A stretch of 64,000 nucleotides of DNA from Ruminococcus sp. UBA6407 (GTDB lineage: Bacteria > Bacillota > Clostridia > Oscillospirales > Ruminococcaceae), in the NCBI GenBank assembly GCA_002438605.1, contig DJPR01000006.1:64688-128687 (forward strand), read 5' to 3'. The translations under genes were made by a program, and so were the position numbers. Below the pieces are notes generated by a model, which made no database searches, was not told the origin of the DNA, and saw nothing but the letters and a program-made list of their open reading frames with translations. Positions 40,562-59,406 of this stretch are shown here, in pieces; the stretch's first letter is position 1; every line of letters begins with the position of its first letter.

Positions 40562-40575
40562 TAATTATCTACTGC

Positions 40576-40695: not shown

Positions 40696-40725
40696 TTGAC
40701 AAATACTATGGTTTTGGTGTAAAAT
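40696..40725 (+). promoter_or_regulatory. Promoter of the aconitase operon
   Basis: TTGACA (40696-40701), 18-nt spacer, TAAAAT (40720-40725), about 30 nt before acn. Confidence 0.65.
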
Positions 40726-40757
40726 TATATTATCCAAGTTTGAAAGGAATGATTTAA

Positions 40758-42695: not shown

Positions 42696-42697
42696 CA

Positions 42698-43399
42698 TTG
42701 AATAATATTAAAATTAAATTGTCTAATGACAAGATATTCAGGAACAATAAATTTCCTGATATGTATTCTGAAACAATATTGAACTTTAATGAACCCATCA
42801 ATGTATTGCGTCAGAATAAATTTGAAGTTAAGAATAACATTTCTCCCATAACTACCTTAAAATGTATTCTTGATAATTATTCTGCCGATAAAAAAATTAT
42901 TGCACTTAATTTTGCAAATGCAATGTATGCAGGCGGCGGATATATTCTGGGAGGCAGCGCACAGGAAGAAAGCCTGTGCAGAGCCTCAATGCTGTATTAT
43001 ACCATTAAAACTCAAAAAAGGTTTTATATAAAAAACAGACTTCATCTACTGCCTGATTATACCGATACTATGATTTATTCGCACAATGTTCCCTTAATCC
43101 GTAATGAAAACGGCGAACTTCTCGATAAATTCATATCATGTGATTTCATTACCTGTCCTGCGGTAAATCGTACTTTTGCAAAATTTATATTTTCAGACAA
43201 AAATATAAACAACAAGATGTCAGTCAGAATAAAAAGGATAATTTCACTCGCTGTATCTGAAAATCCGGATATTATTATACTTGGTGCATTTGGCTGCGGG
43301 ACTTTCGGAAACAAACGTGAAACCATCTACAAAATATTTGAAGATACAATTAATGCATATATTCCTGATAACATAAAGGTTATATTTGCAGTTGTATGA
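42698..43399 (+). CDS. Microbial PARG-like (TIGR02452) protein
   Basis: 233 residues. NFANAMYAGGGYILGGSAQEE is the catalytic signature of bacterial-type poly(ADP-ribose) glycohydrolases (GGG-x7-QEE, with the catalytic Glu pair), and PDIIILGAFGCGTFGN is the second macrodomain loop. It would remove ADP-ribose from proteins or other acceptors. TTG start 2 nt after the acn stop with little ribosome site, so translation is probably coupled. It sits unexpectedly between two TCA enzymes. Confidence 0.88.
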   Translation: MNNIKIKLSNDKIFRNNKFPDMYSETILNFNEPINVLRQNKFEVKNNISPITTLKCILDNYSADKKIIALNFANAMYAGGGYILGGSAQEESLCRASMLYYTIKTQKRFYIKNRLHLLPDYTDTMIYSHNVPLIRNENGELLDKFISCDFITCPAVNRTFAKFIFSDKNINNKMSVRIKRIISLAVSENPDIIILGAFGCGTFGNKRETIYKIFEDTINAYIPDNIKVIFAVV

Positions 43400-43424
43400 A
43401 TATTAAAAATGGAGGCAGATACCC

Positions 43425-44639
43425 ATGTCAAAAATTAAAATGACTACTCCCCTCGTTGAGATGGACGGAGATGAAATGACCAGAATACTCTGGAAATGGA
43501 TAAAGGAAATTCTCCTTGAACCTTATGTTGAACTCAACACAGAGTACTATGATTTAGGTCTTGAACACAGAGAAAAGACAAAAGATAAAGTGACTTTTGA
43601 TTCTGCTGAAGCTACAAAGAAGTATGGCGTTGCAGTAAAGTGTGCAACAATAACACCTAACGCTGCAAGAATGCCTGAATATAATCTTACAGAAATGTGG
43701 AAGTCACCAAACGGTACAATAAGAGCTATCCTTGACGGTACTGTTTTCAGAACTCCGATCATTGTAAAGGGTATTGAACCATATATACCTACATGGACAA
43801 AGCCTATTACAATCGCACGTCATGCTTACGGTGATGTTTACAAAAATACGGAATTAAGAGTACAGAAAGGCAGTAAGGCTGAGCTTGTCGTTACTGATAA
43901 AGACGGAAATGAAACTCGTGAGCTTATTCATGATTTTACAAATTCAGACGGTATTATTCAGGGATTGCATAACCTCGACAACAGTATTGCAGGTTTTGCA
44001 AGAGCCTGCCTTAATTACGGACTTGATCTGAAGCAGGATGTATGGTTTGCAACTAAGGATACAATTTCTAAAAAGTATGACCATAGATTCAAGGATATTT
44101 TCCAGGAAATATATGATAATGAATATAAGGAAAAGTATGAGGCAGCAGGTATAGAATATTTCTATACACTCATAGATGACGCTGTTGCAAGAGTTATTCG
44201 TTCAAACGGCGGATACATATGGGCATGCAAAAATTATGACGGTGATGTAATGTCAGACATGGTTTCGACTGCTTACGGAAGCCTTGCTATGATGACATCT
44301 GTACTTGTTTCACCTGACGGAATTTATGAATATGAGGCTGCACATGGAACAGTTCAGCGTCATTATTATAAGTATCTCAAGGGCGAAGAAACATCTACAA
44401 ACTCTGTTGCAACTATCTTTGCATGGAGCGGTGCTTTACGCAAGAGAGGCGAGCTTGACAGCAACCCTGAACTTTGCGAATTTGCAGATAAACTGGAAAA
44501 GGCAACTATTCAGACTATTGAAGAAGGCGTTATGACAGGTGACCTCTATATGCTTTCAAAGCTTGAAAACAAGAAAAAGGTTGATTCAAAAACTTTCCTT
44601 GAAGAAATAAATAAAAGACTGGAAGCATTGGTTAAGTAA
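43425..44639 (+). CDS. icd: Isocitrate dehydrogenase (NADP+)
   Basis: 404 residues of the type II homodimeric IDH subfamily: [80 protein letters not shown]. The Arg-His in TVQRHY is the NADP-preferring signature of this subfamily. Oxidatively decarboxylates isocitrate to 2-oxoglutarate. GGAGG precedes the ATG. Confidence 0.96.
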
Positions 44640-44694
44640 TAAAAAGGCAGCATAAGCCGTAACGTTAATCATTGGAAAGGCGTGTTATTAATAG

Positions 44695-45339
44695 ATGTCC
44701 AAACAATCAGTATCTGCATCTGTAATCAGAAGACTTCCCAGATATTACAGATTTCTTGCCGAGCTTGAAACACAAAAAGTAGAAAGAATATCTTCAAGAG
44801 AACTTTCGGAGAGAATGGGGCTTACTGCTTCACAAATACGTCAGGACTTAAACTGCTTCGGCGGATTCGGTCAGCAGGGGTACGGCTATAATGTCAGAGA
44901 GCTTCATGCTGAAATAGGCAAAATCCTTGGTGTTATGTCAAACAGGCCTACTATTATAGTAGGTGCTGGTAATCTCGGAAAGGCTATCGCCACACATATT
45001 GATTTTGCCAAAAGAGGATTTAATTTAATCGGCATTTTTGATTCAAATCCTGATTTGAAAAATAAAAAAATCGGAAACTTGAATGTTATGCTGACCGACA
45101 CTTTAGATGATTTCTGCCGAACCGAAAAACCCATTGCAGCAGTTCTATGTATTCCCAAAACTGCTGCTGCCCAAGTTGCCGACAGACTTGTTTCACTTGG
45201 TATACATGCTTTCTGGAATTTCAGTCATTATGATTTAAAGATCAATCATTCAGATGTAATCGTAGAAAACGTACACCTTGGAGACAGCTTGATGACATTG
45301 TCCTTTGGATTAAACAATCTTAATCAATCAGAAGATTAA
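44695..45339 (+). CDS. rex: Redox-sensing transcriptional repressor Rex
   Basis: 214 residues. Winged helix (IRRLPRYYRFLAELE...SSRELSERMGLTASQIRQDL) followed by a Rossmann domain with the NADH-binding IIVGAGNLGKAIATH. Rex dimers bind TTGTTAA-N4-TTAACAA operators when NAD+ is high and release when NADH rises. A matching site covers the adhE promoter in this window. 55 nt after icd and ended by a terminator. Confidence 0.96.
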   Translation: MSKQSVSASVIRRLPRYYRFLAELETQKVERISSRELSERMGLTASQIRQDLNCFGGFGQQGYGYNVRELHAEIGKILGVMSNRPTIIVGAGNLGKAIATHIDFAKRGFNLIGIFDSNPDLKNKKIGNLNVMLTDTLDDFCRTEKPIAAVLCIPKTAAAQVADRLVSLGIHAFWNFSHYDLKINHSDVIVENVHLGDSLMTLSFGLNNLNQSED

Positions 45340-45341
45340 TA

Positions 45342-45380
45342 AAAAAACTGTATCAAGTATTTTTCTTGATACAGTTTTTT
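45342..45380 (+). terminator. Terminator after rex
   Basis: A 16-bp perfect stem (45342-45357 with 45365-45380, core ACTGTATCAAG) with A and T flanks. Confidence 0.92.
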
Positions 45381-45549
45381 ATAATAAAAACATGCATAAT
45401 AAATTCACGAACTCCATAATTTATATTTATAGCAAGACAACAAATATTAAAAAATTTGTTAATTTAAAAATTATACTTGAAAATATATTAAATATATGAT
45501 AAACTATTATAAACGGTATAATCCGTATATTTAGGAAAGGATGGATGTT

Positions 45550-45990
45550 ATGACATTATTCTGGGCGATTGCTTTTATTGTGCTTGTAATTGCAGAAGTC
45601 CTTACGCTTCAGTTGATATCAATATGGCTTGCAATTGGTGCATTATGTGCATTGATAAGCTCTCTTTTTACGACAAGTGTTTTGGCTCAAGCATTAATAT
45701 TTACAATCTCATCAGCTGCTTTACTCATTATTACTTTCCCGCTAATACGAAAAAATTCCAAGGCAAAAAAAACCGCCACTAATTCCGAACTCAACATTGG
45801 TGAAAACGCTACCGTAATTGAAGAGATTAATTCAGAGAACGGTACAGGACGTGTAAATTTAAACGGCGTTGACTGGATGGCTGTTTCAGACTGCATTATT
45901 CCTGCCGGTTCAACCGTTGTGGTTACTGAAATTGACGGTGCAAAGCTTAAAGTAATATTGAAACATAAAGAACAGCATATTAATTTATAA
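45550..45990 (+). CDS. NfeD family membrane protein
   Basis: 146 residues from ATG 45550 (AGGAAAGG 9 nt upstream; the in-frame ATG at 45541 abuts the ribosome site). Hydrophobic N-terminal half with three helices, then a small OB-fold domain (ELNIGENATVIEEI...GTGRVNLNGVDWMAVSD), the NfeD-C domain. NfeD proteins partner with SPFH proteins, and one follows 17 nt downstream. Confidence 0.9.
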   Translation: MTLFWAIAFIVLVIAEVLTLQLISIWLAIGALCALISSLFTTSVLAQALIFTISSAALLIITFPLIRKNSKAKKTATNSELNIGENATVIEEINSENGTGRVNLNGVDWMAVSDCIIPAGSTVVVTEIDGAKLKVILKHKEQHINL

Positions 45991-46007
45991 TATTGGAGGT
46001 ATTATTT

Positions 46008-46946
46008 ATGGACGCAAAAGCTTACATCATTATAGGTATACTTATATTTTTAATTATTATTTTTATAAGATGTATCAGAATTGTTCCTCAGGCATATGTT
46101 TTCGTAATAGAAAAATTTGGTTCATATCATTGTGAATGGCAAACAGGTCTTCATTTTATGTTCCCATTTATTTATCGTGTCGCCGGAAAAATCTCTCTCA
46201 AGGAAAAGGTTGTTGACTTTAAACCGCAGGACGTTATTACAAAAGATAACGTTACTATGAAAATAGATACTGTTGTCTTTTATCAAATTACAAATGCAAG
46301 ACAATATATATATGGTGTTGAACGTCCTCTTGCTGCAATTGAAAACTTATCCGCAACAACACTAAGAAATATTATCGGTGAACTTGAACTTGACGCTACA
46401 CTTACCTCAAGAGATGTAATCAATACTAAGATTACTGCCATACTTGACCAGGCTACTGACCGTTGGGGAATCAAGGTTAATAGAGTAGAACTTAAAAATA
46501 TCCTGCCGCCAAGAGAAATTCAGGACGCTATGGAAAAGCAGATGAAAGCTGAACGTGAACGCCGTGAAAAAATTCTTCAGGCTGAGGGTGAAAAGAAATC
46601 ACAAATTCTTGTTGCTGAAGGCGAAAAGGAGTCTAAAATTCTTAGAGCTGAAGCTGAAAAACAGTCAATGATTCTTCATGCTACAGCTGTTAAAGAGCAG
46701 AAAATCCTTGAAGCTACCGGTGAAGCACAGGCAATTGAGCTTGTTCAGCAGGCTCTTGCAGACAGCTTGATAAAGCTCAATAACGCTAATCCATCCGAAA
46801 AGGTAATTCAGCTTAAATCTCTTGAAGCATTTGGAAAAGCTGCTGACGGAAAAGCCACAAAAATTATTATTCCAAGCGAAATTCAGGGGCTTGCAGGTCT
46901 TGTTACAAGCATAAAAGAATCCGCATCGGATATTAAAAATCAATAA
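46008..46946 (+). CDS. SPFH/stomatin-like membrane protein
   Basis: 312 residues from ATG 46008, GGAGG 8 nt upstream. One N-terminal membrane helix (AYIIIGILIFLIIIFI), then the SPFH domain (VPQAYVFVIEKFGSYHCEWQTGLHFMFPF, VVDFKPQDVITKDNVTM, ATTLRNIIGELELDATLTSRD), then an Ala/Glu-rich coiled coil (~175-250). Organises membrane microdomains with its NfeD partner and often guards membrane protein quality. Confidence 0.93.
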   Translation: MDAKAYIIIGILIFLIIIFIRCIRIVPQAYVFVIEKFGSYHCEWQTGLHFMFPFIYRVAGKISLKEKVVDFKPQDVITKDNVTMKIDTVVFYQITNARQYIYGVERPLAAIENLSATTLRNIIGELELDATLTSRDVINTKITAILDQATDRWGIKVNRVELKNILPPREIQDAMEKQMKAERERREKILQAEGEKKSQILVAEGEKESKILRAEAEKQSMILHATAVKEQKILEATGEAQAIELVQQALADSLIKLNNANPSEKVIQLKSLEAFGKAADGKATKIIIPSEIQGLAGLVTSIKESASDIKNQ

Positions 46947-46966
46947 ATGTCGAATTTTGCATATTA

Positions 46967-47001
46967 AACAAAAAGAACAGGCTTTTCCTGTTCTTTTTGT
47001 T
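46967..47001 (+). terminator. Terminator after the SPFH gene
   Basis: AACAAAAAGAACAGG (46967-46981) pairs with CCTGTTCTTTTTGTT (46987-47001). Confidence 0.9.
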
Positions 47002-47047
47002 ATGTGATACAATTTTTTTAAAATAATAAAAAGTTGTTTTTTTTCTC

Positions 47048-47076
47048 TTGCATGAAACATAATGGTGGTGTATAAT
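47048..47076 (+). promoter_or_regulatory. Promoter of the MBOAT-DHHW-FkbH-ACP operon
   Basis: TTGCAT (47048-47053), 17-nt spacer, TATAAT (47071-47076). It predicts a very AT-rich leader of about 250 nt before the MBOAT gene. Confidence 0.65.
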
Positions 47077-47183
47077 AATAAAGTAATGTGTCATAGTTTT
47101 TAAAAATAATTAGCTTTTATCTTGAAATTTTATTTAACTAATTACACTTTTGCTAATTATATGACTTATTATATTCCATTATT

Positions 47184-47219
47184 TGTTAATCATCAATAAA
47201 AATAGAGATGTGATTAACA
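47184..47219 (+). promoter_or_regulatory. 9-bp inverted repeat in the MBOAT leader
   Basis: TGTTAATCA (47184-47192) and TGATTAACA (47211-47219), perfect, 18 nt apart. It could be an operator or a hairpin in the leader RNA. The rest of 47083-47330 is featureless AT-rich sequence. Confidence 0.4.
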
Positions 47220-47330
47220 TTTAATAAATTTAATATTTTTTCATTAATTGTTAGAACAAAAATTAAAAAGATATAAATATAAATTTTAATTTTAAGGAAC
47301 AAAGAACAAAAATCAAGGTGGTAACAAAAA

Positions 47331-48731
47331 ATGGTTTTTTCCAGGCTCTTCTTTCTCTATTTCTTTTTTCCGATCTGTCTTATTGCATATGCTGGTTCGG
47401 GAAATCTAAAGAACAAAAACACAGTATTGATTATTTTCTCGCTGATTTTCTATGCATGGGGTGAACCGTTCTATATTCTGCTTTTAATTCTGAGTTCATT
47501 TATAAATTACGTTGCAGGTTTGGTTATAGGACGATTTCAAGGTACTAAAATAGATATGGCTGCTACTGCTGTAACAGTAACATATGATATTCTTATGCTT
47601 GGTATTTTTAAGTACAGCGGTTTCATTGTTGAAAATATCAATGCTTTTTTTAATGCAGATTTTTCTGTCCCAAATTTAAAACTTCCAATCGGCATCAGTT
47701 TTTATACATTTCAGATTATTTCCTATATCATTGATTGCCATTGGGAAACAGTCAAACCTCAAAAGAGCTTCTTTAAATTCCTGATGTATGTTTCTCTGTT
47801 TCCTCAGCTTGTTGCAGGTCCGATTGTCCGTTACAGTACAATTGAAAAAGAAATTGACAACAGAAAAACTACAGTAAAGGATATATCATACGGATTTAAC
47901 AGATTAATAATCGGTCTGTCAAAAAAAGTTCTGATTGCAAATAATCTCGGAATCGTTGTGGATAATTTTTTAAAAATTCCTGAAAATTCCACATTTATAG
48001 GTACTTGGCTTGGTGCTGTATTATATGCTATGCAGATTTATTATGACTTTTCGGGATATTCAGATATGGCTATAGGTATGGGACGAATTTTTGGTTTCCA
48101 TTTTGATGAAAACTTTAATTATCCTTTCATTTGCAAAGATGTTACTGAATTCTGGCAAAGATGGCACATATCACTTGGTTCGTTTTTTCGTGACTACTTA
48201 TTATATGTTCCGATTTTTGGAAAAAGAAGAAAATACGGAGGTTTGTTTTTAGTTTGGTTTTGTACAGGCTTGTGGCATGGTGCAAGCTGGAACTTTATCA
48301 TCTGGGGGCTTTACTACGGAATGTTCATTTTCATTGAAATGAAAATCGGCAAAAAGAAAATGAAAAAAATACCTTTGGCTATACGGCATATATATAACAA
48401 GATTGTAATAGTTATCGGATTCGGAATATTCTATTTTGAAGATTTCGGAAAGCTTGGAAGATTCCTGAAAAATATATTCGGATTCGGTGGAAACGGATTT
48501 ATTGCTGAATATGACAAAATGACTATTGTAAATAACGAATACTTAATTTTGATTGCCTTAATTTTCTGTCTGCCTATAATTCCAATGCTTAAAAAGTTAT
48601 GTGAAAAATCATATCCTATCAAAACTGCTGCATCAGTTGCAGCAATGTGTATATGCAGTTTACTGCTTATTACAAGCAGTATTATGCTGGTTGATGCAAC
48701 AAACAATCCTTTCCTTTATTTCAGATTTTAA
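47331..48731 (+). CDS. MBOAT family O-acyltransferase (AlgI/DltB-like)
   Basis: 466 residues with about ten membrane helices. AlgI-type signatures: LPIGISFYTFQIISYIID, YVSLFPQLVAGPIVRY, FWQRWHISLGSFFRDYLLYVPI (from residue 274) and CTGLWHGASWNFIIWG with the invariant membrane His at about 316. MBOAT proteins pass an acyl group from a carrier (CoA or ACP) across the membrane to a surface acceptor. GGTGG precedes the ATG. First gene of a four-gene operon with DHHW, FkbH-like and ACP genes, which suggests the donor here is an ACP thioester (see findings). Confidence 0.93.
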   Translation: MVFSRLFFLYFFFPICLIAYAGSGNLKNKNTVLIIFSLIFYAWGEPFYILLLILSSFINYVAGLVIGRFQGTKIDMAATAVTVTYDILMLGIFKYSGFIVENINAFFNADFSVPNLKLPIGISFYTFQIISYIIDCHWETVKPQKSFFKFLMYVSLFPQLVAGPIVRYSTIEKEIDNRKTTVKDISYGFNRLIIGLSKKVLIANNLGIVVDNFLKIPENSTFIGTWLGAVLYAMQIYYDFSGYSDMAIGMGRIFGFHFDENFNYPFICKDVTEFWQRWHISLGSFFRDYLLYVPIFGKRRKYGGLFLVWFCTGLWHGASWNFIIWGLYYGMFIFIEMKIGKKKMKKIPLAIRHIYNKIVIVIGFGIFYFEDFGKLGRFLKNIFGFGGNGFIAEYDKMTIVNNEYLILIALIFCLPIIPMLKKLCEKSYPIKTAASVAAMCICSLLLITSSIMLVDATNNPFLYFRF

Positions 48732-48746
48732 GAGGTGTGCATTTTA

Positions 48747-50162
48747 ATGTCAAACGAAATAAAAAATGATAACTCTTCAATAGATATTAATGTTCCTAAA
48801 TCCAAGCCAAATCGCCGAAGAAAAAGAATAATCCTTGAAAGCAGAATTGCTGCAATAAATGTTATGCTCGTTGCAGGTATTCTGCTTACAGGCTCAGTTT
48901 ATTTTCTTTTCTTTAAGCGTGATACAGTATCTCATGAAGAAAACAGAAAATTAGCTGAATTTCCAAAGTTCAGCTTTGATGATTATTTCAGTGGAAAATA
49001 TACGGAGGAAATTGCAAATTATTATGATGATACTGTTCCCAACAGAAGCTTTTTCAAAAAGAAAGTTTCAAATCTTCTCTCTTTAAAAGGCAGAACATAC
49101 GGTGACGGTGATGATGCAATCGTATTTTATGGTCCTGCACTAGCACCTGAAAATAAATCAAATTCAGAAAAAGTAACAACTACCGCTAAACAAGCAACAA
49201 CAGCTCCTGCACAAACTGAAGCTGCCACAACAGTTACAACAACTATGCCTGATAATAAAAATCCTGCCGTTGATAACGGAATGATTTCAAATAACATTGT
49301 TGTTGTAAATCACAGAGGTCTTATGCTTTACGGCGGTGGCATGCAGAACGGTCAGGAATATGCAAACAGCTTAAATGAGTATAAGAAGGCTCTGGGTGAT
49401 AAAGTAAATGTATACTCTATGGTTTGTCCGACTGCTGTTTCCTACTATATGCCAGAAAATTACCTTAATATGACCGCAAGTGAAGAAGATAACATTAACA
49501 ATATCAATTCATTTCTTTCAAATGTAAAGCCTGTTGATGTATTTACCGCCCTTCTCTTCCATAAGTCTGAAGCTATTTATTCGAGAACTGACCACCATTG
49601 GCAGCCTTTGGGGGCGTACTATGCTGCACAAAAATTTGCTGAAACAGCAGGAGTAGAATTTGCCGAACTTAATGACCAGAACTATGAAACAGTTACACTT
49701 CCTGGATATGTCGGTACATTATACGGATATACTCAAAGTGCTGATCTTTTGAATAATCCGGAGGACTTCATTTACTATATTCCTAAAGCTGAATGTAAAA
49801 CTACACGATATGATACATCATTTACAAATGGTGTTGAGGGCAGCTTAACTCTTGATCCGACAAATATGTCAACATCAAGCTATTATATGGTATTCGGCGG
49901 AGATGAACAAATCACTCACATTGAAACGCAATGCAAAAATGGCAGAACTCTTGTAATATTCAAGGATAGCTACGGAAATGCTCTTGCTCCTGTCCTTACA
50001 GGTTCATTTGAAAATATTTATGTATGTGACATAAGATACTTCAATCTTAATGCTGTAAGTTTTATTCAGCAGGTTGGCGGTACAGATGTTTTATTTGCCA
50101 TGAATACTTACAGTGCTACAGGTCAAAATCATAATTATATAGAATCAATCAGAACTCAATAG
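48747..50162 (+). CDS. DHHW family membrane-anchored protein (AlgJ/DltD-like role)
   Basis: 471 residues from ATG 48747 (AGAGGTG upstream; the frame opens at 48735). Short basic cytoplasmic tail, one membrane anchor (~34-56), then an extracellular domain with a Thr-rich insertion (~143-170). The DHHW signature lies at about residues 282-285 in SRTDHHWQPLGAYYA, and LVIFKDSYGNAL near the C-terminus supplies the SGNH/GDSL-like serine. Such proteins work with AlgI-type MBOATs to place acyl groups on exported polysaccharide or teichoic acid. 15 nt after the MBOAT stop. Confidence 0.9.
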   Translation: MSNEIKNDNSSIDINVPKSKPNRRRKRIILESRIAAINVMLVAGILLTGSVYFLFFKRDTVSHEENRKLAEFPKFSFDDYFSGKYTEEIANYYDDTVPNRSFFKKKVSNLLSLKGRTYGDGDDAIVFYGPALAPENKSNSEKVTTTAKQATTAPAQTEAATTVTTTMPDNKNPAVDNGMISNNIVVVNHRGLMLYGGGMQNGQEYANSLNEYKKALGDKVNVYSMVCPTAVSYYMPENYLNMTASEEDNINNINSFLSNVKPVDVFTALLFHKSEAIYSRTDHHWQPLGAYYAAQKFAETAGVEFAELNDQNYETVTLPGYVGTLYGYTQSADLLNNPEDFIYYIPKAECKTTRYDTSFTNGVEGSLTLDPTNMSTSSYYMVFGGDEQITHIETQCKNGRTLVIFKDSYGNALAPVLTGSFENIYVCDIRYFNLNAVSFIQQVGGTDVLFAMNTYSATGQNHNYIESIRTQ

Positions 50163-50171
50163 GAGGTTTGA

Positions 50172-51983
50172 ATGAAAGAATTATCCTATCCTTTCGATAG
50201 TCATTATATAATGCGTTACAGAAAAAAACTAAAAAAAACGCTGCTCAATGATTCAAGTTCAAGAATCAAAAAGAAAATTGCCGTATTGGGCGGTTCAACA
50301 ACTGATGACATTATTTTTGCCCTTGAGCTTTTTCTGCTTAACACAGGTATAGAACCGATATTTTACAAGTCTGAATATAATAAATGTTGGGAGGACGCTG
50401 TTTTCGGCAATCCTGAACTGGATGCGTTTGTTCCGGATATTGTATTTATCCACACTACTTATAGAAATATAACAGAGTTTTCCCATAATATTTCCGATAC
50501 AGAAAATGAAATTGAAGAAAAAATAAATTCACAATTTTCTCATTTTAAAAACATGTGGACTTCAATATCAGAAAAATTTTCATGTCCTATTATTCAAAAT
50601 AACTTTGATATTCCTCTTTGCCGCAATTTAGGCAATTCAGACTGTTGGAATATTCACGGACAAACTTATTTTATCAACCGACTAAATGAAATGATGTCAG
50701 ATTATGCAAGAAAGAACAATGGATTTTATATAAATGATATTAATTATCTTTCTGCATGTATTGGTCTTGAAAAATGGCATAACTCAGAAGCATGGTATAT
50801 GTATAAATATGCTTTAGGTCTTGACTGTATTCCTGAGCTTGCATATAATATTTCATGCATTATAAAATCTATATATGGAAAAAACAAAAAGGTCATTGCT
50901 CTTGACCTTGATAACACTCTTTGGGGAGGCGTTATCGGCGATGACGGTCAGGAAGGCATTGAAATAGGTCAGGAAAACCCTGTAGCTCAATCCTACAGTG
51001 AATTTCAGTCTTACCTTAAAAATTATAAAGACCTCGGAATACTTCTTACCGTTTGTTCAAAAAACGAAGAAGAGAACGCTTTGCTTGGTTTGAGTCACCC
51101 TGAAAGTATCCTGAAAAAAGATGATTTTGTTTTGATTAAGGCAAATTGGGAAAGTAAAGACAGAAATATCTCAGCTATGGCTGACGAACTTTCGCTTTTA
51201 ACCGAAAGCTTTGTTTTTGTTGACGATAATCCGGCTGAATGTGAAATTGTCGGTTCTCAGCTGCCTGACGTAAGTGTTATAGGATTTCAAAATGTTCATG
51301 AAGCTATGTACAAGCTAAGCAGAAGCGGTTACTTTGAGATTACATCCTTATCAGAGGACGACCTGAAGCGCAATGATATGTACATTGCCAATGCAAAAAG
51401 AGCTGAACAGAAAAAAACTTTTGAAAATTACGATGACTACTTGCTCAGTCTTGAAATGAAAGCTGAAATTGAACCGTTTCGTCCTGTATATATCAAAAGA
51501 ATTGCTCAGCTGACAAATAAAAGCAATCAATTCAACCTTACAACAAGGCGTTATACTGCTGAAGAAATCGAAAAAATCAGTTCATCTGAAAATCATATCT
51601 GCATTTATGGCAAGCTTGAGGACAAGTTTGGTGATAATGGTGTTGTTTCTGTTGTAATAGGAGAAAAACATGGTACAAAGCTGGATATTATCCTTTGGCT
51701 TATGAGTTGTCGTGTTTTAAAGCGTGATATGGAGCTTGCAATGCTTGACAGGCTTGCAGAATATGCAGCAAATTCAGGAATTACCAAATTGGTCGGCACA
51801 TATATACCTACAGCTAAAAATAAAATGGTAAAGAATTTTTATGATGAAACTCTTGGTTTTTCAGCCGTAAACAGTCTGCCTGATGGTACAGCCGTATTTG
51901 AACTCGACATTCAGAACTACAAAAAGAAAAATAAAGTTATTGACGTAATGGAAAGTGAGTGTTTATATAATGAACAGAAATGA
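50172..51983 (+). CDS. FkbH-like HAD-IIIC / GNAT fusion protein
   Basis: 603 residues. N-terminal SGNH-like domain (~30-230; KIAVLGGSTTDD). HAD phosphatase domain with ALDLDNTLWGG (Asp245, Asp247), CSKNEEE and FVFVDDNPAE. C-terminal GNAT-like domain with QLTNKSNQFNLTTRRYT and LMSCRVLKRDME (Cys ~513). In polyketide pathways FkbH-type enzymes take 1,3-bisphosphoglycerate, dephosphorylate it and load glyceryl onto an ACP. An ACP gene overlaps the end of this gene by 14 nt, so the same carrier-loading job is likely. No polyketide synthase is near. GGAGG precedes the ATG. Confidence 0.9.
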   Translation: MKELSYPFDSHYIMRYRKKLKKTLLNDSSSRIKKKIAVLGGSTTDDIIFALELFLLNTGIEPIFYKSEYNKCWEDAVFGNPELDAFVPDIVFIHTTYRNITEFSHNISDTENEIEEKINSQFSHFKNMWTSISEKFSCPIIQNNFDIPLCRNLGNSDCWNIHGQTYFINRLNEMMSDYARKNNGFYINDINYLSACIGLEKWHNSEAWYMYKYALGLDCIPELAYNISCIIKSIYGKNKKVIALDLDNTLWGGVIGDDGQEGIEIGQENPVAQSYSEFQSYLKNYKDLGILLTVCSKNEEENALLGLSHPESILKKDDFVLIKANWESKDRNISAMADELSLLTESFVFVDDNPAECEIVGSQLPDVSVIGFQNVHEAMYKLSRSGYFEITSLSEDDLKRNDMYIANAKRAEQKKTFENYDDYLLSLEMKAEIEPFRPVYIKRIAQLTNKSNQFNLTTRRYTAEEIEKISSSENHICIYGKLEDKFGDNGVVSVVIGEKHGTKLDIILWLMSCRVLKRDMELAMLDRLAEYAANSGITKLVGTYIPTAKNKMVKNFYDETLGFSAVNSLPDGTAVFELDIQNYKKKNKVIDVMESECLYNEQK

Positions 51984-52215
51984 AGTATTAAAAAAGTTAA
52001 ATGTAATATTCAGAGATGTGTTTGATGATGATTCAATTGTTATTAACGATAGAACAACTTCAAACGATATTGAGGAATGGGACAGTATTGAACATATTAA
52101 TCTTATCGGTGCTGTTGAAGATGAATTTTCAATGCGTTTTAAAATGAAAGAGGTTTCAGGAATGAAAAACGTAGGTGAAATGGTTGACATTATATGTGAA
52201 AGAGGAAAATTTTAG
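51970..52215 (+). CDS. Acyl carrier protein
   Basis: 81 residues from ATG 51970, overlapping the FkbH-like gene. Acidic four-helix ACP: NDIEEWDSIEHINLIGAVEDEF holds the phosphopantetheine Ser (about residue 39, in DS-I). It would carry the group loaded by the FkbH-like enzyme. It is too far from fatty-acid genes to be the main AcpP. No PPTase gene is visible in the window. Confidence 0.92.
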   Translation: MNRNEVLKKLNVIFRDVFDDDSIVINDRTTSNDIEEWDSIEHINLIGAVEDEFSMRFKMKEVSGMKNVGEMVDIICERGKF

Positions 52216-52287
52216 TCCTCTTTCTATTATATATAAGGTTTATTAGTCATTAATCTATCTTAATTGACAATACATCTGAAAAAAGCT

Positions 52288-52316
52288 ATTGTTTTTTTCG
52301 CTTAATTATGATACAA
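52288..52316 (+). promoter_or_regulatory. Putative rlmB promoter
   Basis: TTGTTT (52288-52293), 17-nt spacer, TACAAT (52311-52316). A second, weaker set starts with TTGACA at 52263. Confidence 0.45.
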
Positions 52317-52355
52317 TTGATAAAGAAATAAAATGAACAAAAGGAGTTCGGCAAA

Positions 52356-53132
52356 ATGCCAGCTAAAATAAAAGATAATTTTAATGATGACAATTTTGTC
52401 AGCGAAAATATTATTGCAGGACGCAATCCTGTAATTGAAGCTTTGAAATCAGATTCAGACATTGATGCCGTATACATCAGCGGCGGAGGCGGAAGTTTAA
52501 ATCTTATACGAAAGCTAGCTAAGGATAAGGGTATAGTTGTTAAAGATGTTCAGGACAGCAAGCTTACTCAAATGTGCAGCGGTGCTTCACACCAAGGTGT
52601 TGCAGCTGTAGGTGCCTGCGGAAAATATGTAACTGTTGAGGATATTTTGAATATATCCAAAAATAAAGGAACTAAGCCTTTTATTATTATTTGCGATGAA
52701 ATTGAAGATCCTCATAACCTCGGTGCAATTATTCGTACTGCTGAATCAGCAGGTGCAGATGGAGTTATTATTCCTAAACGCCGCAGTGCTTCACTTAACG
52801 CAACAGTGTTTAAAACATCAGCAGGTGCTGCAAGCTGGCTGCCTGTTGCAAAGGTATCAAACCTCGCAAATACTATTGATATGCTTAAAGAAAACGGCGT
52901 GTGGATTTATGGCACTGATGCAAGCGGCTCAGATTACTCCAAAACAGACCTGACCGGCAGTATGGCTCTTGTTATAGGCTCTGAAGGCTTTGGAATAAGC
53001 AAACTTATCCTTAAAAAATGTGACTTCCTTTTAAAACTTCCTATGTTTGGGAAGATTACATCGCTTAATGCATCTGTTGCTGCCGGAATTTTCATGTATG
53101 AAACTGTAAGGCAGAGAAATGTAGAAAATTAA
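52356..53132 (+). CDS. rlmB: 23S rRNA (guanosine-2'-O-)-methyltransferase RlmB
   Basis: 258 residues of the SPOUT/TrmH family: N-terminal substrate-binding domain (IIAGRNPVIEALKSD), then DEIEDPHNLGAIIRTAESAGADGVIIPKRRSA, ALVIGSEGFGISKL and LPMFGKITSLNASVAAGIFMYE, which build the knotted SAM site. Methylates a guanosine in the 23S peptidyl-transferase region. AAAGGAG precedes the ATG. Confidence 0.94.
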   Translation: MPAKIKDNFNDDNFVSENIIAGRNPVIEALKSDSDIDAVYISGGGGSLNLIRKLAKDKGIVVKDVQDSKLTQMCSGASHQGVAAVGACGKYVTVEDILNISKNKGTKPFIIICDEIEDPHNLGAIIRTAESAGADGVIIPKRRSASLNATVFKTSAGAASWLPVAKVSNLANTIDMLKENGVWIYGTDASGSDYSKTDLTGSMALVIGSEGFGISKLILKKCDFLLKLPMFGKITSLNASVAAGIFMYETVRQRNVEN

Positions 53133-53151
53133 ATAAGGAGTAGTAGATACT

Positions 53152-55668
53152 ATGTCTAAACAAAAGCTTTCTCTTGAAGACATTTTGGACGAGTATTCTA
53201 CTGATGAAAAGAACAGTCAGTCTAAAACTACAGGAAACAGACTGGAAACTGAAAAAATCTTGAATTCAGCAGATAAAATAAATGCTCCTCCTGATAGTAA
53301 AGAAGAAAAAGTTAAACGAATTATTCGCAATCATACAAAATCTCCAAAAATCGGTGACGGAACGCTGAGACGTCCAAATCCTGCCAATGACGTTAAGCCG
53401 GCTGATTTGGCACGTTCAAAAGTATCTTTTGTAAATTCTTCAGCTTTAAGTCAGCTGAGAAGCTCTAAGGCGGATAATCAATCCGGATATGACAACGCTG
53501 TTGTGACTAATACTGTGGATAGTGATTATACACCTAAAATCAGAAGAATGTCTGATTCCACAAGAGCTAAAGAAATCGAAAAAATAAAAAAGAAGCATAA
53601 AAAAGGCAGGAAACTCAATAAAACCTATAAAAAGGAACGTCCTGAGGGCGAATATCTTTATGCTCCTCCAAAGGTTAAAAAGCGAAAACGCACTGAATCA
53701 GTTGAAGAAGAAGCTATGAGACCTGAAAATCAGCGTCTTATCACTGATATTGTTCCCTCACCTAAAGCCGTTGAAGCTGCAAAACCTGTTACGCCAGCAC
53801 CAAGAGCTGAAAAAACAAGTATTGATTTAAGCTCAGAAAACAATCTTCAGGCGGAAGAACTTGATATACATATCACACAGGAAACTGACTACAGCAAAAA
53901 AAATAAAACTAAACGAACAAAAAGACTTGTTGATTTTAATTATTACGGTGATGTTGAAGACGTTGGACGTGACATTTTTGAACTTAAAAGCACCATATCC
54001 GTAAGAGTCTTTATTATGATTCTCACTTCGTTTATGAGTGTTTACCTTACTCTTGCGGCACAATTCAAGCTTCCTATAATAGATTATCTGAATCAATCAC
54101 TGCATGTCAGATTTTTCATAGCCGCACAAATTATTATCGGACTCATTTCAGCCGTTTGTTCGCTTTCAGTTTTCACAAACGGATTTAGAAAACTATTTAC
54201 ACTAAAAGCAGACTGTGACAGCATGACTGCATTGACCTCTGCTTCATGTATTATTGCGGCACTGTTTTCATTGACTACTCCGGAACTTGTCATGAACAAT
54301 AAAGTACACATTTATATGCCGGTTGGTGTCTTGTCACTGCTTTTCAATGCTCTTGGAAAAAATCTGATTATCACACGAGCCGCACGAAATTTCAATTTTG
54401 TTTCAAAAAATTTTGACAGACATGGCATTGTTTTTGTAAGTGATGAAACAAAAGCAGAATCACTTACACGAGGTACGTTGGGTGACTTTCCTATTCTTGC
54501 TTCAATGCGGAAAACAGATTTTCTTACTGACTTTTTAAGGTACACTTATTCTTCAGACATTGCAGATAAATTCTGCAAACGTGCTGTTCCGCTTTGCTTT
54601 ATTGCCTCGCTGGGTGTATCAGGAGTGTTGACATACATACGAAGTGAATCAATAAGCTTTGGCTTTTCGATTTTTTCACTTCTTATTTGTGCTTCTTCCT
54701 GTATGGCCATGTCTTTAGTTGTAAATCTTCCGCTTGATAATGCGTCAAGGAAGTTTATAAAGAATAAAGGCATCATGCTTGGCTATCAAAGTGTTGATGA
54801 TTTCTTTGACACAAACTCAATATTGATAAATGCTGATAAGCTCTTCCCTACCGGTTCTATTAATTTAAGCGGAATCAAGGTTTTCTCAGATACAAAAATT
54901 GATGAAGCTTTGCTTGAAGCAGCAAGTCTGACTCATTATGCAGGAAGCGTTATGCAGGAACTTTTCAATGACGTTATTGCAGGAAACAAAGATATATTAT
55001 ATCCTATTGAAAATTTCTCATATGAAGATTCTATGGGAATCGGCGGCTGGATTAATAATAAACGAGTTCTTTTCGGTAATCGTGAGCTTATGACCAGTCA
55101 CTATATTGAGGGAATGCCTACAAAAACCAAAGAAACTGAATTTACTTCCAATGGACAGGAAGCTGTTTATCTTTCAATTTCAGGCAATTTATCAGCAATG
55201 TTCATTGTTGACATCAAAGCTGACAAGGAAGTTAAATCATGGATAAAACAATTAAGCAAACGTAATATTTTCCTGATAATAAAAAGTGTTGACGCTTGTA
55301 TAACTTTAAAAAAGATTTCTTCGATTTTCAATGTACCTGAAGAAATGATGAAGGTTATTCCAAGCAAGCTCCACAAAGAATTTGACGAAGAAACTTCAAA
55401 GGCAGTAAGATTAAGTGCATCTATGGCATGTACAGGAAAGTTCACTTCATTAGCTCAGCTTATAAACGGAACTAAGAATGTTTATTCCGCTTCAATTATA
55501 GGCCTGATTTTTCAGACTGCCTCTATTCTTCTCGGATTTGCATTGTGTATTCTGCTTATTCTATCAAGAGATTTCAGCTATGACTATATGTCAGCAACTT
55601 CTTTGATTGCATATAATATAATTTGTACATGCGTTACATACTTTGCCGTCAATATGAAGCAAATGTAA
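53152..55668 (+). CDS. Large membrane protein resembling a degenerate P1B-type ATPase
   Basis: 838 residues. Residues 1-270 are disordered and very basic (KKKHKKGRKLNKTYKKERP). Six predicted helices (~285-303, 319-341, 357-375, 386-404, 479-496, 503-525), a cytoplasmic part, and two more at ~779-804 and 814-834 give the eight-helix P1B layout. After helix 6, ASRKFIKNKGIMLGYQSVDD matches the P1B segment before the phosphorylation site, and SYEDSMGIGGWINNKRVLFG matches the nucleotide domain. However the CPC motif is CASSC and the DKTGT site reads DKLFPTGS (~562-569); no TGE or GDGxNDA is seen. ATP-driven transport is therefore doubtful. Lies 19 nt after rlmB. Confidence 0.75.
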   Translation: MSKQKLSLEDILDEYSTDEKNSQSKTTGNRLETEKILNSADKINAPPDSKEEKVKRIIRNHTKSPKIGDGTLRRPNPANDVKPADLARSKVSFVNSSALSQLRSSKADNQSGYDNAVVTNTVDSDYTPKIRRMSDSTRAKEIEKIKKKHKKGRKLNKTYKKERPEGEYLYAPPKVKKRKRTESVEEEAMRPENQRLITDIVPSPKAVEAAKPVTPAPRAEKTSIDLSSENNLQAEELDIHITQETDYSKKNKTKRTKRLVDFNYYGDVEDVGRDIFELKSTISVRVFIMILTSFMSVYLTLAAQFKLPIIDYLNQSLHVRFFIAAQIIIGLISAVCSLSVFTNGFRKLFTLKADCDSMTALTSASCIIAALFSLTTPELVMNNKVHIYMPVGVLSLLFNALGKNLIITRAARNFNFVSKNFDRHGIVFVSDETKAESLTRGTLGDFPILASMRKTDFLTDFLRYTYSSDIADKFCKRAVPLCFIASLGVSGVLTYIRSESISFGFSIFSLLICASSCMAMSLVVNLPLDNASRKFIKNKGIMLGYQSVDDFFDTNSILINADKLFPTGSINLSGIKVFSDTKIDEALLEAASLTHYAGSVMQELFNDVIAGNKDILYPIENFSYEDSMGIGGWINNKRVLFGNRELMTSHYIEGMPTKTKETEFTSNGQEAVYLSISGNLSAMFIVDIKADKEVKSWIKQLSKRNIFLIIKSVDACITLKKISSIFNVPEEMMKVIPSKLHKEFDEETSKAVRLSASMACTGKFTSLAQLINGTKNVYSASIIGLIFQTASILLGFALCILLILSRDFSYDYMSATSLIAYNIICTCVTYFAVNMKQM

Positions 55669-55704
55669 TCAGTTTTTATGGTATTAAATATACATTTATT
55701 TTAC

Positions 55705-55731
55705 AGGACGGATTCTTTTATCCGTCCTTTT
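55705..55731 (+). terminator. Terminator after the P-type-ATPase-like gene
   Basis: AGGACGGAT (55705-55713) pairs with ATCCGTCCT (55720-55728) over a 6-nt loop, followed by T. Confidence 0.85.
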
Positions 55732-55806
55732 CTATAAACGAGCAAATATAAAGCTATTATCTATGCTTTGTACAGTATTGCTCCAACTGTGAAAGGAAGG
55801 AATTTC

Positions 55807-57378
55807 ATGCAAAATAAAGACAACAGATACAGATATAATTCAGACCTGCCTCGCCCATCTTCTTATAACAAAAGAAAGCAGACTGGTCAGCCTTTAGATA
55901 AAAATTCTGACAATGAACAAACTCAATATATCGGTAATATGGACAGTTTTTCAGATACGGCTGAAATCCCGTATTATGAAGACAGCCGCCCAACTGAAAC
56001 AGATAATATGTATCGATCACAGAGTACAGGAAACCGCAATAATATGAGAAATTCTTATTATGGCAGACCTCAAAGTACGGCTCGGAATAATTATAATAAC
56101 CAACCAAACCACAATAACAACGGTCAGGCACATCAAAGGTCAAATGGTGGAGTATACAGAAATGAAACACCACATCACCAAGAAAGAAGGAATACCGTTC
56201 CGCAAAATCATCAAAAACAAATGCGTTCTGAATATGAACATCATCCAAGAACAGCATCAACAGAACATGAACGACGTCCAAGACCTGTGGCACAAGAAAA
56301 TAAGTACCGTCAAAGAACTCTGCCTGATGATGAAAGTCGTAAAAATACACAAACAAAGAAGAAAAGACCACCACAGCAGCCTCCTGTTCAATATAAGAAA
56401 AAGAGAAAAAAGAAAAGACGTTTCGGTCTTGTTTCACGCATTATCCTTTCAATTGTTACTCTTGTTGTTGTTATTTTTGCAATTTATTCAGCTGTTTCAT
56501 TGGCTCTAATTAAAAAAATACACTACGTTGAAAGCAATATAACAAGCTATTCCGGACTTCTTGATGAAAGCTATGTCAAAAACGTTCTGTTAATCGGAAC
56601 AGACGGCAGAACTGCCTCAGACAGAGGACGCTCAGATACAATGATACTGCTTTCAATCAACAGTAAAACAGACGAAATATTCCTGACATCATTAATGCGT
56701 GATTCCTATGTAGATATATCAGGCTACGGCTGGAACAAGCTTAATGCCGCTTATTCATTCGGCGGCCCTGAACTTTTGATTGACACTATACAGCGTAACT
56801 TTGACGTTAAAGTAACAGACTACATTGCAGTAAACTTTAATGCATTTGCTGCTGTTGTTGACGCTGTTGACGGAGTTGAAATAAATGTTTCAGACAGCGA
56901 AGCAGAGGCTATAAACCAAATTCTTCATGATGAAGTAAATGAGCTTATGGGTGATGCTATTGATTCAGATTACCTTAGCAGCGGAGGTAAATATAAACTT
57001 AACGGAAAACAGGCTCTTTCATATGCAAGAATAAGATATGTCGGAAATGCTGATTTTGAAAGAACAGAACGTCAAAGAGAAGTCCTCTCAAAAATTGCTG
57101 ACAATATGAAAACCTTTAACCCTAAAAAGCTTACGGGAGTTATGAAAGCTGCACTTCCTGAAATGACTACAAATATGAAAACCCGTGAACTGTATTTATT
57201 ATCACTAAGACTTCCATTTTTACTCAGATATGACATTGAACAGCTGAGAGTTCCTGCTGATGATACATGGACAGGCAATAACGTATATATTGGTGATGAT
57301 TTATCATCTGTATTGGAAGTTGATTTTAATGCAAACATAGATATGCTGAAACAAAAGGTGTTTACTGACAAAAAATAA
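55807..57378 (+). CDS. LytR-CpsA-Psr (LCP) family protein
   Basis: 523 residues from ATG 55807, AAGGAAGG 6 nt upstream. A long hydrophilic cytoplasmic tail (~1-200), rich in Asn, Gln, His and Arg, ends in a Lys/Arg patch before one membrane helix (~213-235). The extracellular LCP domain follows: VLLIGTDGRTASDRGRSDTMILL, LTSLMRDSYVDI and YARIRYVGNADFERTERQRE, with the conserved Arg/Asp residues for pyrophosphate-lipid binding. LCP enzymes attach teichoic acid or capsule polymers to peptidoglycan. The unusually long tail is odd for the family. Confidence 0.93.
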   Translation: MQNKDNRYRYNSDLPRPSSYNKRKQTGQPLDKNSDNEQTQYIGNMDSFSDTAEIPYYEDSRPTETDNMYRSQSTGNRNNMRNSYYGRPQSTARNNYNNQPNHNNNGQAHQRSNGGVYRNETPHHQERRNTVPQNHQKQMRSEYEHHPRTASTEHERRPRPVAQENKYRQRTLPDDESRKNTQTKKKRPPQQPPVQYKKKRKKKRRFGLVSRIILSIVTLVVVIFAIYSAVSLALIKKIHYVESNITSYSGLLDESYVKNVLLIGTDGRTASDRGRSDTMILLSINSKTDEIFLTSLMRDSYVDISGYGWNKLNAAYSFGGPELLIDTIQRNFDVKVTDYIAVNFNAFAAVVDAVDGVEINVSDSEAEAINQILHDEVNELMGDAIDSDYLSSGGKYKLNGKQALSYARIRYVGNADFERTERQREVLSKIADNMKTFNPKKLTGVMKAALPEMTTNMKTRELYLLSLRLPFLLRYDIEQLRVPADDTWTGNNVYIGDDLSSVLEVDFNANIDMLKQKVFTDKK

Positions 57379-57434
57379 TTATAACCATTCGCTAATATAT
57401 TTCAAAAAGTCTCAAATAAATATTAAATCACCTA

Positions 57435-57463
57435 TTCACATTCATGTCGCTTTATGCTAAAAT
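57435..57463 (+). promoter_or_regulatory. Promoter of the DUF6514 gene
   Basis: TTCACA (57435-57440), 17-nt spacer, TAAAAT (57458-57463). Confidence 0.5.
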
Positions 57464-57532
57464 ACATTAAGGCAGTGCGGTAGGAAGCTTTATCCCCTAT
57501 TGCCATCAACTTGAAAGGAGCGGCTTTTTGAC

Positions 57533-57835
57533 ATGTTTGGAATTGTTAGTAAAAGAAAGAAAGAGGTTGTTGATAAATCAGTATATCTTGAAGTATTCGG
57601 CGATAACTGCGTTGCGTACAGAGTAACAACAGGTACTATCAGCGGACTTGGCTATCCGATTATTACATACGGCGTTGAGGCAGAGGATTTCAATAACGGA
57701 ACTATTGAAACTATTCCCGATTTTTCAAGAAATATTGAGGATGCTGTAGATTTTACCGAAATGATGATCAATAAAAAATCCAAACCAAGCCAAATGTATT
57801 CATTAGCCTTAAATTATTTATATTTTTCTATTTAA
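57533..57835 (+). CDS. DUF6514 family protein
   Basis: 100 residues: VYLEVFGDNCVAYRVTTGTI, then YPIITYGVEAEDFNNGTIETIPDFSRN and a helical end with MINKKSKPSQMYSLALNYL, the DUF6514 pattern. Function unknown; small and soluble. AAAGGAG precedes the ATG. Confidence 0.75.
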   Translation: MFGIVSKRKKEVVDKSVYLEVFGDNCVAYRVTTGTISGLGYPIITYGVEAEDFNNGTIETIPDFSRNIEDAVDFTEMMINKKSKPSQMYSLALNYLYFSI

Positions 57836-57840
57836 AATAG

Positions 57841-57869
57841 TAGACAAATCTTTCTGTTTATGGTAAAAT
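57841..57869 (+). promoter_or_regulatory. Promoter of the PC4/YdbC-like gene
   Basis: TAGACA (57841-57846), 17-nt spacer, TAAAAT (57864-57869). Confidence 0.5.
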
Positions 57870-57936
57870 AATATGGTTGCCTGCTTTATGTCGGATCTCC
57901 GCATAAGTGCAATACCCAAAAGAAAGGAAGATTTTT

Positions 57937-58170
57937 ATGGCAGAACTTAAATTTGAAATTACAGAACAATTGGGCATTTTAGCAACAAATGCAAAAGGTT
58001 GGAACAAAGAACTCAACCTTGTAAGCTGGAATGAACGTGAACCCAAATATGATATTCGTGAATGGTCACCTGATCACACTAAAATGGGAAAAGGCTGCAC
58101 ATTAACCATTGATGAAGTTGCCGCATTAAAAGATATTCTCAATGACCTTGACCTTGATTCATTTGAATAA
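57937..58170 (+). CDS. YdbC family PC4-like single-stranded DNA-binding protein
   Basis: 77 residues from ATG 57937 with AAAGGAAG upstream. Core: LGILATNAKGWNKELNLVSWNEREPKYDIREWSPD, then GKGCTLTIDEVAALKDIL, the beta-strand-helix pattern of the bacterial PC4 (YdbC) family. Family members bind ssDNA as dimers; cellular role unsettled. Confidence 0.88.
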   Translation: MAELKFEITEQLGILATNAKGWNKELNLVSWNEREPKYDIREWSPDHTKMGKGCTLTIDEVAALKDILNDLDLDSFE

Positions 58171-58174
58171 TAAT

Positions 58175-58215
58175 AAAGGCTTGAAGTTTGTAGTAAACAA
58201 ACTTCAAGCCTTTTT
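58175..58215 (+). terminator. Terminator after the YdbC-like gene
   Basis: A 16-bp stem (58175-58190 with 58198-58213, core GGCTTGAAGTTTG) followed by T. Confidence 0.93.
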
Positions 58216-58329
58216 AAATGCAACAGATTGTTTTTTTGTAAATATGTCAAATAATTACCACATTCATCAATAAAATGATATAAATTACTGCAACATTGTG
58301 TTAAAATATGCTCAAAGGAGATGATTGTT

Positions 58330-59387: not shown

Positions 59388-59406
59388 AATTGCAGGAGGC
59401 GATTTT

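Follow-up and report, generated by a model that had tools for sequence, protein, structure and literature searches.

A four-gene cassette in a Ruminococcus-like genome predicted to acylate the cell envelope by way of a dedicated carrier protein

Introduction

What does an FkbH-type enzyme with an acyl carrier protein (ACP) of its own do in an operon with a pair of membrane acyltransferases? The question is raised by four intact plus-strand genes at positions 47331 to 52215 of a 64,000-nucleotide (nt) stretch, hereafter the window, from a Firmicute whose genome (G000; 2.14 Mb, 46 contigs) is low in GC. By open reading frame (ORF) listing, Pfam and NCBIfam profiles, and, for the ACP, similarity to a solved carrier protein, they encode, in order, a membrane-bound O-acyltransferase (MBOAT), a DHHW/AlgX-type SGNH protein, the FkbH-type enzyme, and the ACP; the named relatives of the FkbH-type enzyme are mostly from Ruminococcus metagenome-assembled genomes (MAGs). 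We think it probable that these genes are a self-contained, carrier-fed cassette for acylating the envelope, with a glyceryl group taken from glycolysis. At the level of sequence, the parts of such a system, its conserved active sites, the co-conservation of its genes, and an altered docking segment on the MBOAT are discernible; that the group is glyceryl, that it comes from 1,3-bisphosphoglycerate, and that a surface polymer accepts it are predictions.

The features of the cassette, in window coordinates, are as follows.

47331..48731, plus strand: MBOAT acyltransferase, 466 amino acids (aa), with His279, His316 (WHG), and a C-terminal FLYFRF that includes Tyr463
48189..48242, plus strand: putative docking segment, MBOAT residues 287-304 (RDYLLYVPIFGKRRKYGG), by alignment to DltB helix HC
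48735..50162, plus strand: membrane-anchored DHHW/AlgX-type SGNH protein, 475 aa from GTG or 471 aa from the ATG at 48747; DHHW at residues 286-289 (Asp286-His287-His288) and KDS with Ser412
50172..51983, plus strand: FkbH-type enzyme, 603 aa, with FkbH_N, HAD-IIIC, and GNAT-like domains; HAD DLDNT at residues 245-249 (Asp245, Asp247), Lys297, and Asp351/352; SCRVL with Cys513 in the GNAT-like domain
51955..52215, plus strand: dedicated ACP, 86 aa from GTG or 81 aa from the ATG at 51970; phosphopantetheine Ser44 in GTG numbering, Ser39 if the ATG is the start

Co-conservation of the four genes

Among 297 genomes sampled from the family, 109 had a match above the cut-off of the FkbH profile TIGR01686; at the phylum level the figure was 10 of 249, the window's genome included. 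The family survey counted 116 such matches, one of them the window's own. Surroundings were fetched for 107 of the other 115 (97 plus 10); among the eight left out, five were second or third matches of a genome or lay at a contig start. Because contig ends were kept in the counts, the absences given below are upper bounds.

A preliminary description of the locus had proposed co-conservation of the gene set as a check, and the survey bore it out: MBOAT-DHHW-FkbH-ACP was found on one strand and in the window's order at 34 of the 107 loci, which span 17 genus codes, that of the window among them. Within the first 97 loci, 31 had all four genes, 46 had FkbH-ACP with neither MBOAT nor DHHW, and 9 had FkbH alone. 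The remainder were FkbH-ACP-DHHW without MBOAT (4 loci, one of them truncated at a contig end), FkbH lacking an ACP but accompanied by a different MBOAT type (4 loci), FkbH-ACP with another MBOAT type (2 loci), and FkbH with MBOAT-DHHW but no ACP (1 locus). The ten additional loci comprised three with all four genes, five with FkbH-ACP, and two with FkbH-ACP plus another MBOAT type. The DHHW protein was short in L108 (221 aa) and L135 (285 aa) and split into two ORFs in L088. The full set was also present in 6 of 17 named loci (L003-L007 and L014, the MBOAT of L006 being cut by the contig start); L002 and L016 were cut by contig ends, and L012, L013, and L015 had FkbH-ACP with another MBOAT. 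By our own arithmetic, with about three MBOAT genes per genome, chance alone would place an FkbH gene within 7 kb of one of them, on its strand, in ∼1% of genomes.

Among ORFs of at least 100 aa within 6 kb of 39 cassette loci, listed through an overlap filter by which some genes can be lost, no other family was found in more than 7. The cassette thus appears to be complete in itself, and its target, like that of dlt, is probably synthesized from genes at another site. These neighborhoods gave no support to a fixed glycan locus as the target.

A LytR-CpsA-Psr gene (PF03816) lies downstream of the cassette in the window (55768-57378); the family occurs near the cassette in only five close relatives. 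The gene may point to attachment of a wall polymer, or it may be just local synteny.

Active-site residues

Conservation of the FkbH active site among homologues was the other check that the preliminary description had named, and it came out the same way. In an alignment of 110 FkbH rows (the window, 97 from the survey, and 12 others), Asp245, Asp247, Lys297, Asp351, Asp352, Cys513, and Arg514 were invariant, and Thr249 was kept in 108. The DHHW residues Asp286, His287, His288, and Ser412 were kept in 30 of 32 rows, the other two being gaps. In the MBOAT, His279, His316, and Tyr463 were present in all 44 ACP-linked and all 15 unlinked relatives; the last Phe of the tail was kept in 43 of the 44 linked proteins, with Trp in one. 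W42, D43, and S44 were among the ACP positions conserved at 94% or more in a 32-row alignment.

The MBOAT tail FLYFRF is an instance of the FXYXXF acyl-shuttle hexapeptide. According to an excerpt of the relevant work (PMC12148441; the papers cited here are represented by excerpts), the Tyr of this motif in PatA is acetylated from acetyl-CoA and then serves an SGNH partner, and in Dlt the motif is carried by the microprotein DltX.

The docking segment of the MBOAT

Does the ACP serve the MBOAT? In DltB, residues Met302, Val305, Ile306, Met309, Lys312, and Arg317 of helix HC contact the carrier DltC, as excerpted from PMC11035591. We took as the docking segment of the cassette MBOAT the part aligned to this helix, by our own residue count. 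The comparison that follows is of MBOAT rows chosen by hand, partly by the presence of FkbH, with some of the genomes incomplete. The segment had the form FGKR in 44 of 44 ACP-linked MBOATs of the window's subfamily and in 7 of 8 MBOATs that lacked an ACP match and came from FkbH-bearing genomes. The exception, L062, is the second MBOAT in its genome, alongside an FGKR copy; one of the seven, L167, has only a partial FkbH, at the beginning of a contig, and its genome was outside the FkbH survey list. L168, with FGKR, was cut at a contig end and was assigned to neither class.

The form was GGN in 8 of 8 unlinked MBOATs whose genomes have no FkbH above the cut-off. It was also GGN in 20 of 20 additional controls (17 scored by script and 3 by eye), of which 12 came from such genomes and 8 were second MBOATs of FkbH-bearing genomes. 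AlgI and PatA presumably have a GGNR-type segment. We read the altered segment, a sequence feature, as arguing for a carrier rather than an acyl-CoA donor; if the proposed system is real, FGKR versus GGN would serve as a signature separating carrier-fed from carrier-free MBOATs.

Gene order points the same way in the four genomes opened from genus code g108 that have this MBOAT, where an ACP directly follows MBOAT-DHHW (L158-L161) and the genome's FkbH lies elsewhere (L060, L062, L066, L094). That FkbH is of a more distant type (∼380 to 410 bits versus 850 to 1090 for most cassette members). Five loci with an MBOAT near FkbH and no ACP match (L112, L119, L123, L124, L062) were not counted as carrier fed; four had GGN/GGS, and L123 had another form. 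Around 15 FkbH loci that had no ACP match, a motif search turned up no overlooked ACP; in the gene listings of such loci, the overlap filter hid some genes, FkbH itself included.

Relation to known systems

The Dlt system (DltA, DltB, DltC, DltD, and DltX) carries out the D-alanylation of teichoic acids. The cassette resembles it in having a carrier with a phosphopantetheine Ser, a DltB-like MBOAT, an SGNH-type outer protein, and an FXYXXF shuttle Tyr, and also in that the carrier gene adjoins those for the MBOAT and the outer acyltransferase, both here and in the 34 family loci. The differences are the following. An FkbH/HAD loader takes the place of the adenylating DltA, which had no match over cut-off in the window's genome (129 bits for the best TIGR01734 match, against a cut-off of 560); the MBOAT bears the shuttle motif at its own C terminus, and DltX does not supply it; a DHHW/AlgX-type protein stands in place of DltD; and the MBOAT falls far below the DltB cut-off. 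The Dlt-like operon of the preliminary description therefore stands as to its logic, which is supported by gene order, residues, shuttle Tyr, docking segment, and the other MBOATs found with FkbH-ACP; as a Dlt operon in the strict sense it was rejected, on the missing DltA and the MBOAT score.

PatA/PatB likewise combines an MBOAT bearing a C-terminal FXYXXF with a separate SGNH protein, but it is described in the same excerpt as carrier free and acyl-CoA using (PMC12148441), whereas the operon here includes a dedicated ACP with a loader, and the form of the docking segment is not that of carrier-free relatives. The nearest mechanistic kin of the cassette is a PatAB-type MBOAT-SGNH pair fitted with a carrier.

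Its other half resembles the FkbH-type glyceryl-ACP enzymes, of which OzmB is one. With Mad7/Mad8 and Mad14/Mad12 (excerpts of PMC7489565) the cassette shares TIGR01686, the HAD residues, the Cys, and a neighboring ACP of its own; it differs in that the partner is a membrane acyltransferase pair, with no PKS (polyketide synthase) or tetronate genes seen. In the literature searched, which left out most subscription journals and, where lists of matches were long, in several cases took in only the top entries, we found no description of the gene set MBOAT-DHHW-FkbH-ACP and no paper joining HAD-IIIC with MBOAT. The sole match for FkbH, MBOAT, and acyl carrier protein together concerned aeruginosins.

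Identity and packing of the genes

The preliminary description had reported four packed genes, and plus-strand ORFs were found at those places. Its gaps of 15, 9, and -14 nt were reproduced when the ATGs at 48747 and 51970 were taken as starts, in place of the upstream GTGs chosen by the ORF tool. All of the motifs it named were present (DLDNT, SCRVL with Cys513, WHGAS with His316, ACP Ser44, DHHW, and KDS Ser412).

The MBOAT matched PF03062 over the Pfam cut-off (91 bits) and was DltB-like but below the cut-off of the NCBIfam DltB equivalog (140 versus 375 bits); the best fold match of its predicted structure was DltB (6bug_C). The DHHW protein matched both PF14286 (143.8 bits) and PF16822 ALGX (32.8 bits) over cut-off, and the FkbH-type enzyme matched TIGR01686 (277 bits; cut-off, 147) and PF21211, also over cut-off. 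In the predicted structure of the latter (39-row alignment; mean model confidence [pLDDT], 84), the N-terminal part matched 3slr, and GNAT enzymes were also matched. The ACP had no Pfam match at E of 0.001 and only sub-cut-off NCBIfam ACP matches; its PP-binding profile score was 15.5 bits (cut-off, 20.8). By sequence it is too divergent for Pfam, yet it matches a solved carrier protein, 2lml (phmmer, 68.7 bits, 3.5e-18), which is the closest such structure and which we take to be GmACP3 of Geobacter metallireducens. A role in lipopolysaccharide synthesis has been suggested for GmACP3.

The cassette is flanked by a gene for an SPFH protein on one side and one for a SpoU-type methyltransferase on the other. 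No further plus-strand ORF of at least 70 aa, the size from which ORFs were listed, was present in the operon as a DltX-like candidate; microprotein-sized ORFs fall below that size. A scan gave 36 promoter-like sites (26.5 in shuffles) and 9 terminator-like sites (2.6 in shuffles), both of the plus-strand terminators lying inside genes; no operon ends were drawn from it.

FkbH-ACP in other settings

Other MBOAT types were found next to FkbH-ACP in MAGs of uncultured Bacilli (L012, L013, L015), in members of the family (L097, L098, L203, L204), and in another family of the class (L193). In the Alphaproteobacteria, FkbH-ACP and MBOAT occurred together in Sinorhizobium meliloti (L179, L180), a Rhodobacteraceae plasmid (L181), and Tistrella (L184), where the MBOAT is on the other strand. 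The other-type loci that were read gene by gene had nearby a secreted-looking protein with a GxS-type motif, SGNH-like by reading only; Pfam recognized none of the three such proteins tested. Except for L013, which ends in Ile, the other-type MBOATs end in F/Y-x-Y-x-x-F, and the GGN/GGS form is seen in none of them except L193 (for L013 and L184, judged by eye). A search based on the ACP returned 46 plasmid records, 39 of them from Sinorhizobium (two opened). Of the seven others, five have FkbH adjacent to the ACP or one gene away, the Smac51 plasmid record has no annotated FkbH beside it, and the seventh, from Mesorhizobium, was not opened.

Several of these loci have features of their own. 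The S. meliloti pSymB FkbH is two ORFs in strain 1021 (L180) and one in RCAM1750 (L179), with MBOAT and ACP ORFs in both. A plasmid of Paroceanicella profunda (L228) has ACP-FkbH-methyltransferase-VOC with no annotated MBOAT and an mprF-annotated gene nearby. A VOC protein accompanies FkbH-ACP in L012, L013, L015, L097, L193, L204, L181, L179/L180, L189, and L228; MBOAT is also present in eight of these places, and the VOC profile score was weak in L179/L180. The two VOC proteins tested scored best against methylmalonyl-CoA epimerase, below its cut-off. Such a protein, which the window does not have, is possibly an alpha-carbon epimerase that acts on a 2-hydroxyacyl-ACP and would give L-glyceryl.

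Elsewhere (L058, L067, L083, L101), genes for MaoC-like, SDR-like, and GNAT-like proteins come after FkbH-ACP, and MBOAT is absent; the one MaoC-like protein tested (L067) matched PF01575. This is perhaps a different recurrent use of FkbH-ACP, in cytoplasmic acyl transfer.

One function or two

Several observations weigh against a carrier-fed cassette of this kind. Within the 97-locus set, 50 of 83 FkbH-ACP pairs lacked a same-strand MBOAT within the sequence fetched, which in some cases ran into a contig end, and a broader MBOAT profile added none. "FkbH implies MBOAT" was therefore rejected; FkbH-ACP must have other uses and does not by itself imply this system. Of ten phylum loci with FkbH outside the family, L193 alone has an MBOAT with its FkbH-ACP, and that MBOAT keeps a GGS-type segment despite the linkage; the rest are in PKS- or NRPS-like (nonribosomal peptide synthetase) or unread settings. 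Three of ten organisms with plasmid FkbH that were opened, from 117 matching records, have an MBOAT (S. meliloti, the Rhodobacteraceae strain, and Tistrella), and seven do not. Six Pseudobutyrivibrio loci (L008-L011, L017, L018) have FkbH with no ACP or MBOAT match nearby, and two of four other sampled genomes of the window's genus lack FkbH. The excerpt on the suomilide NRPS cluster assigns separate roles to its FkbH-like domain and its MBOAT (PMC13122637). A 61-row MBOAT tree requires 6 changes of the label ACP+FkbH, versus 17.7 in shuffles; the label is thus clustered, so that the FGKR form may have arisen once; the FGKR/GGN split lies mostly between clades of one tree and may reflect a single evolutionary event. 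The predicted MBOAT model is of moderate confidence (pLDDT, 77). Lastly, glyceryl is not told apart from lactyl or another hydroxyacyl group, and the data do not name the acceptor.

The Pseudobutyrivibrio FkbH enzymes are close relatives (55% identity), and in L008 the neighboring genes encode a membrane protein of 655 aa on one side and the permease of an ABC exporter on the other.

Some of these points could mean that the operon joins two functions, an acetyl-CoA-fed MBOAT-DHHW O-acetyltransferase and an FkbH-ACP pair for a cytoplasmic pathway. The many pairs without MBOAT, the MaoC-, SDR-, and GNAT-like neighborhoods, and the separate roles in suomilide agree with such a division, as do the 13 of 20 MBOAT loci that have MBOAT-DHHW without an ACP match. 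Against it stand the fixed order through 34 loci and 17 genus groups, the four loci in which an ACP stays beside MBOAT-DHHW without FkbH, the split by docking segment, and the occurrence of FkbH-ACP with other MBOAT types. We regard this alternative as quite unlikely. Since the case for a carrier-fed cassette rests on the cassette and its MBOAT subfamily and not on FkbH-ACP in general, the plasmid, phylum, and suomilide observations left our estimate of it unchanged.

The acyl group

In excerpts of work on polyketide clusters, FkbH is assigned the formation of glyceryl-ACP from 1,3-bisphosphoglycerate, and glyceryl-ACP is further processed by oxidation and methylation (PMC7489565). The same carrier-fed MBOAT-SGNH machine might accordingly handle D-lactyl, O-methylglyceryl, or another hydroxyacyl group, made by the FkbH-type enzyme or from glyceryl-ACP, and S-adenosylmethionine-dependent methyltransferases or VOC proteins do stand beside FkbH-ACP in some relatives. 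The four-gene cassette, however, has no recurrent fifth enzyme, which makes unmodified glyceryl the simplest product, and its HAD residues are intact in all 110 rows, as expected if a phosphate must be removed; that step is unneeded for acetyl or alanyl loading. A machine of this kind that carries a group other than glyceryl is, in our judgment, unlikely.

Native gellan bears L-glycerate (excerpt of PMC9737242), so glycerate esters on bacterial polysaccharides exist. No paper naming the gellan glyceryltransferase gene was found among the top literature matches.

The genome of the window

The genome has one FkbH and one phosphopantetheinyl transferase, of the ACPS family. A remaining alternative is that the glyceryl-ACP is used at another place in this genome, for a polyketide, tetronate, or NRPS-like metabolite, as in the FkbH systems of the excerpted work (PMC7489565, PMC13122637) and, judged by position, in that of Methylosinus. 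Contigs C25 and C1 (L155, L156) hold small clusters, unlinked to the cassette, with several ACPs and genes that read as ligase-like and ketosynthase-like; these are possible metabolite clusters, but they have their own ACPs, none lies near the window's FkbH, and the FkbH sits with MBOAT-DHHW in the 34 family loci. In agreement with the preliminary description, no PKS was seen near the cassette on reading the translations of ORFs of at least 200 aa at positions 1-40000 and of at least 70 aa at 40000-60000, most of them without a domain search and with 60000-64000 not covered. Supply of a PKS unit was set aside on that ground, and we keep the metabolite alternative as highly improbable.

A second MBOAT-DHHW pair lies at C43:53419-55407, with the MBOAT at L154:434-1816, ∼9 kb before the window. 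This MBOAT lacks both the WHG His and the C-terminal shuttle Tyr and, by its sequence, looks nonfunctional or changed in role.

Discussion

In the mechanism that we propose for the carrier-fed cassette, Cys513 of the FkbH-type enzyme would receive a phosphoglyceryl group from 1,3-bisphosphoglycerate, the enzyme's HAD domain would remove the phosphate, and the glyceryl group would pass to the phosphopantetheine of the dedicated ACP. Much as DltC docks on DltB, the loaded ACP would dock on the MBOAT from the cytoplasmic side, and the acyl group would then be transferred by the MBOAT to its own Tyr463, in the FLYFRF tail, on the outer face. From there the DHHW/SGNH protein would accept it on Ser412 and esterify a hydroxyl of an envelope polymer. 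Both the contact between ACP and MBOAT and the outward direction of transfer are predictions.

More broadly, and only tentatively, the cassette may represent a second class of carrier-fed MBOAT-SGNH envelope acylation, in which FkbH diverts 1,3-bisphosphoglycerate to surface glycerate esters in Ruminococcus-like Firmicutes and some Alphaproteobacteria, with L-glycerate where a VOC epimerase-like protein (not in the window) has been added. If so, FkbH enzymes would gain a role outside polyketides and peptides, and the L-glycerate esters made with a VOC protein might bear on the L-glycerate of gellan. Such a system would leave a definite chemical mark, a base-labile glycerate ester, and would tie the decoration of the cell surface directly to glycolytic flux.

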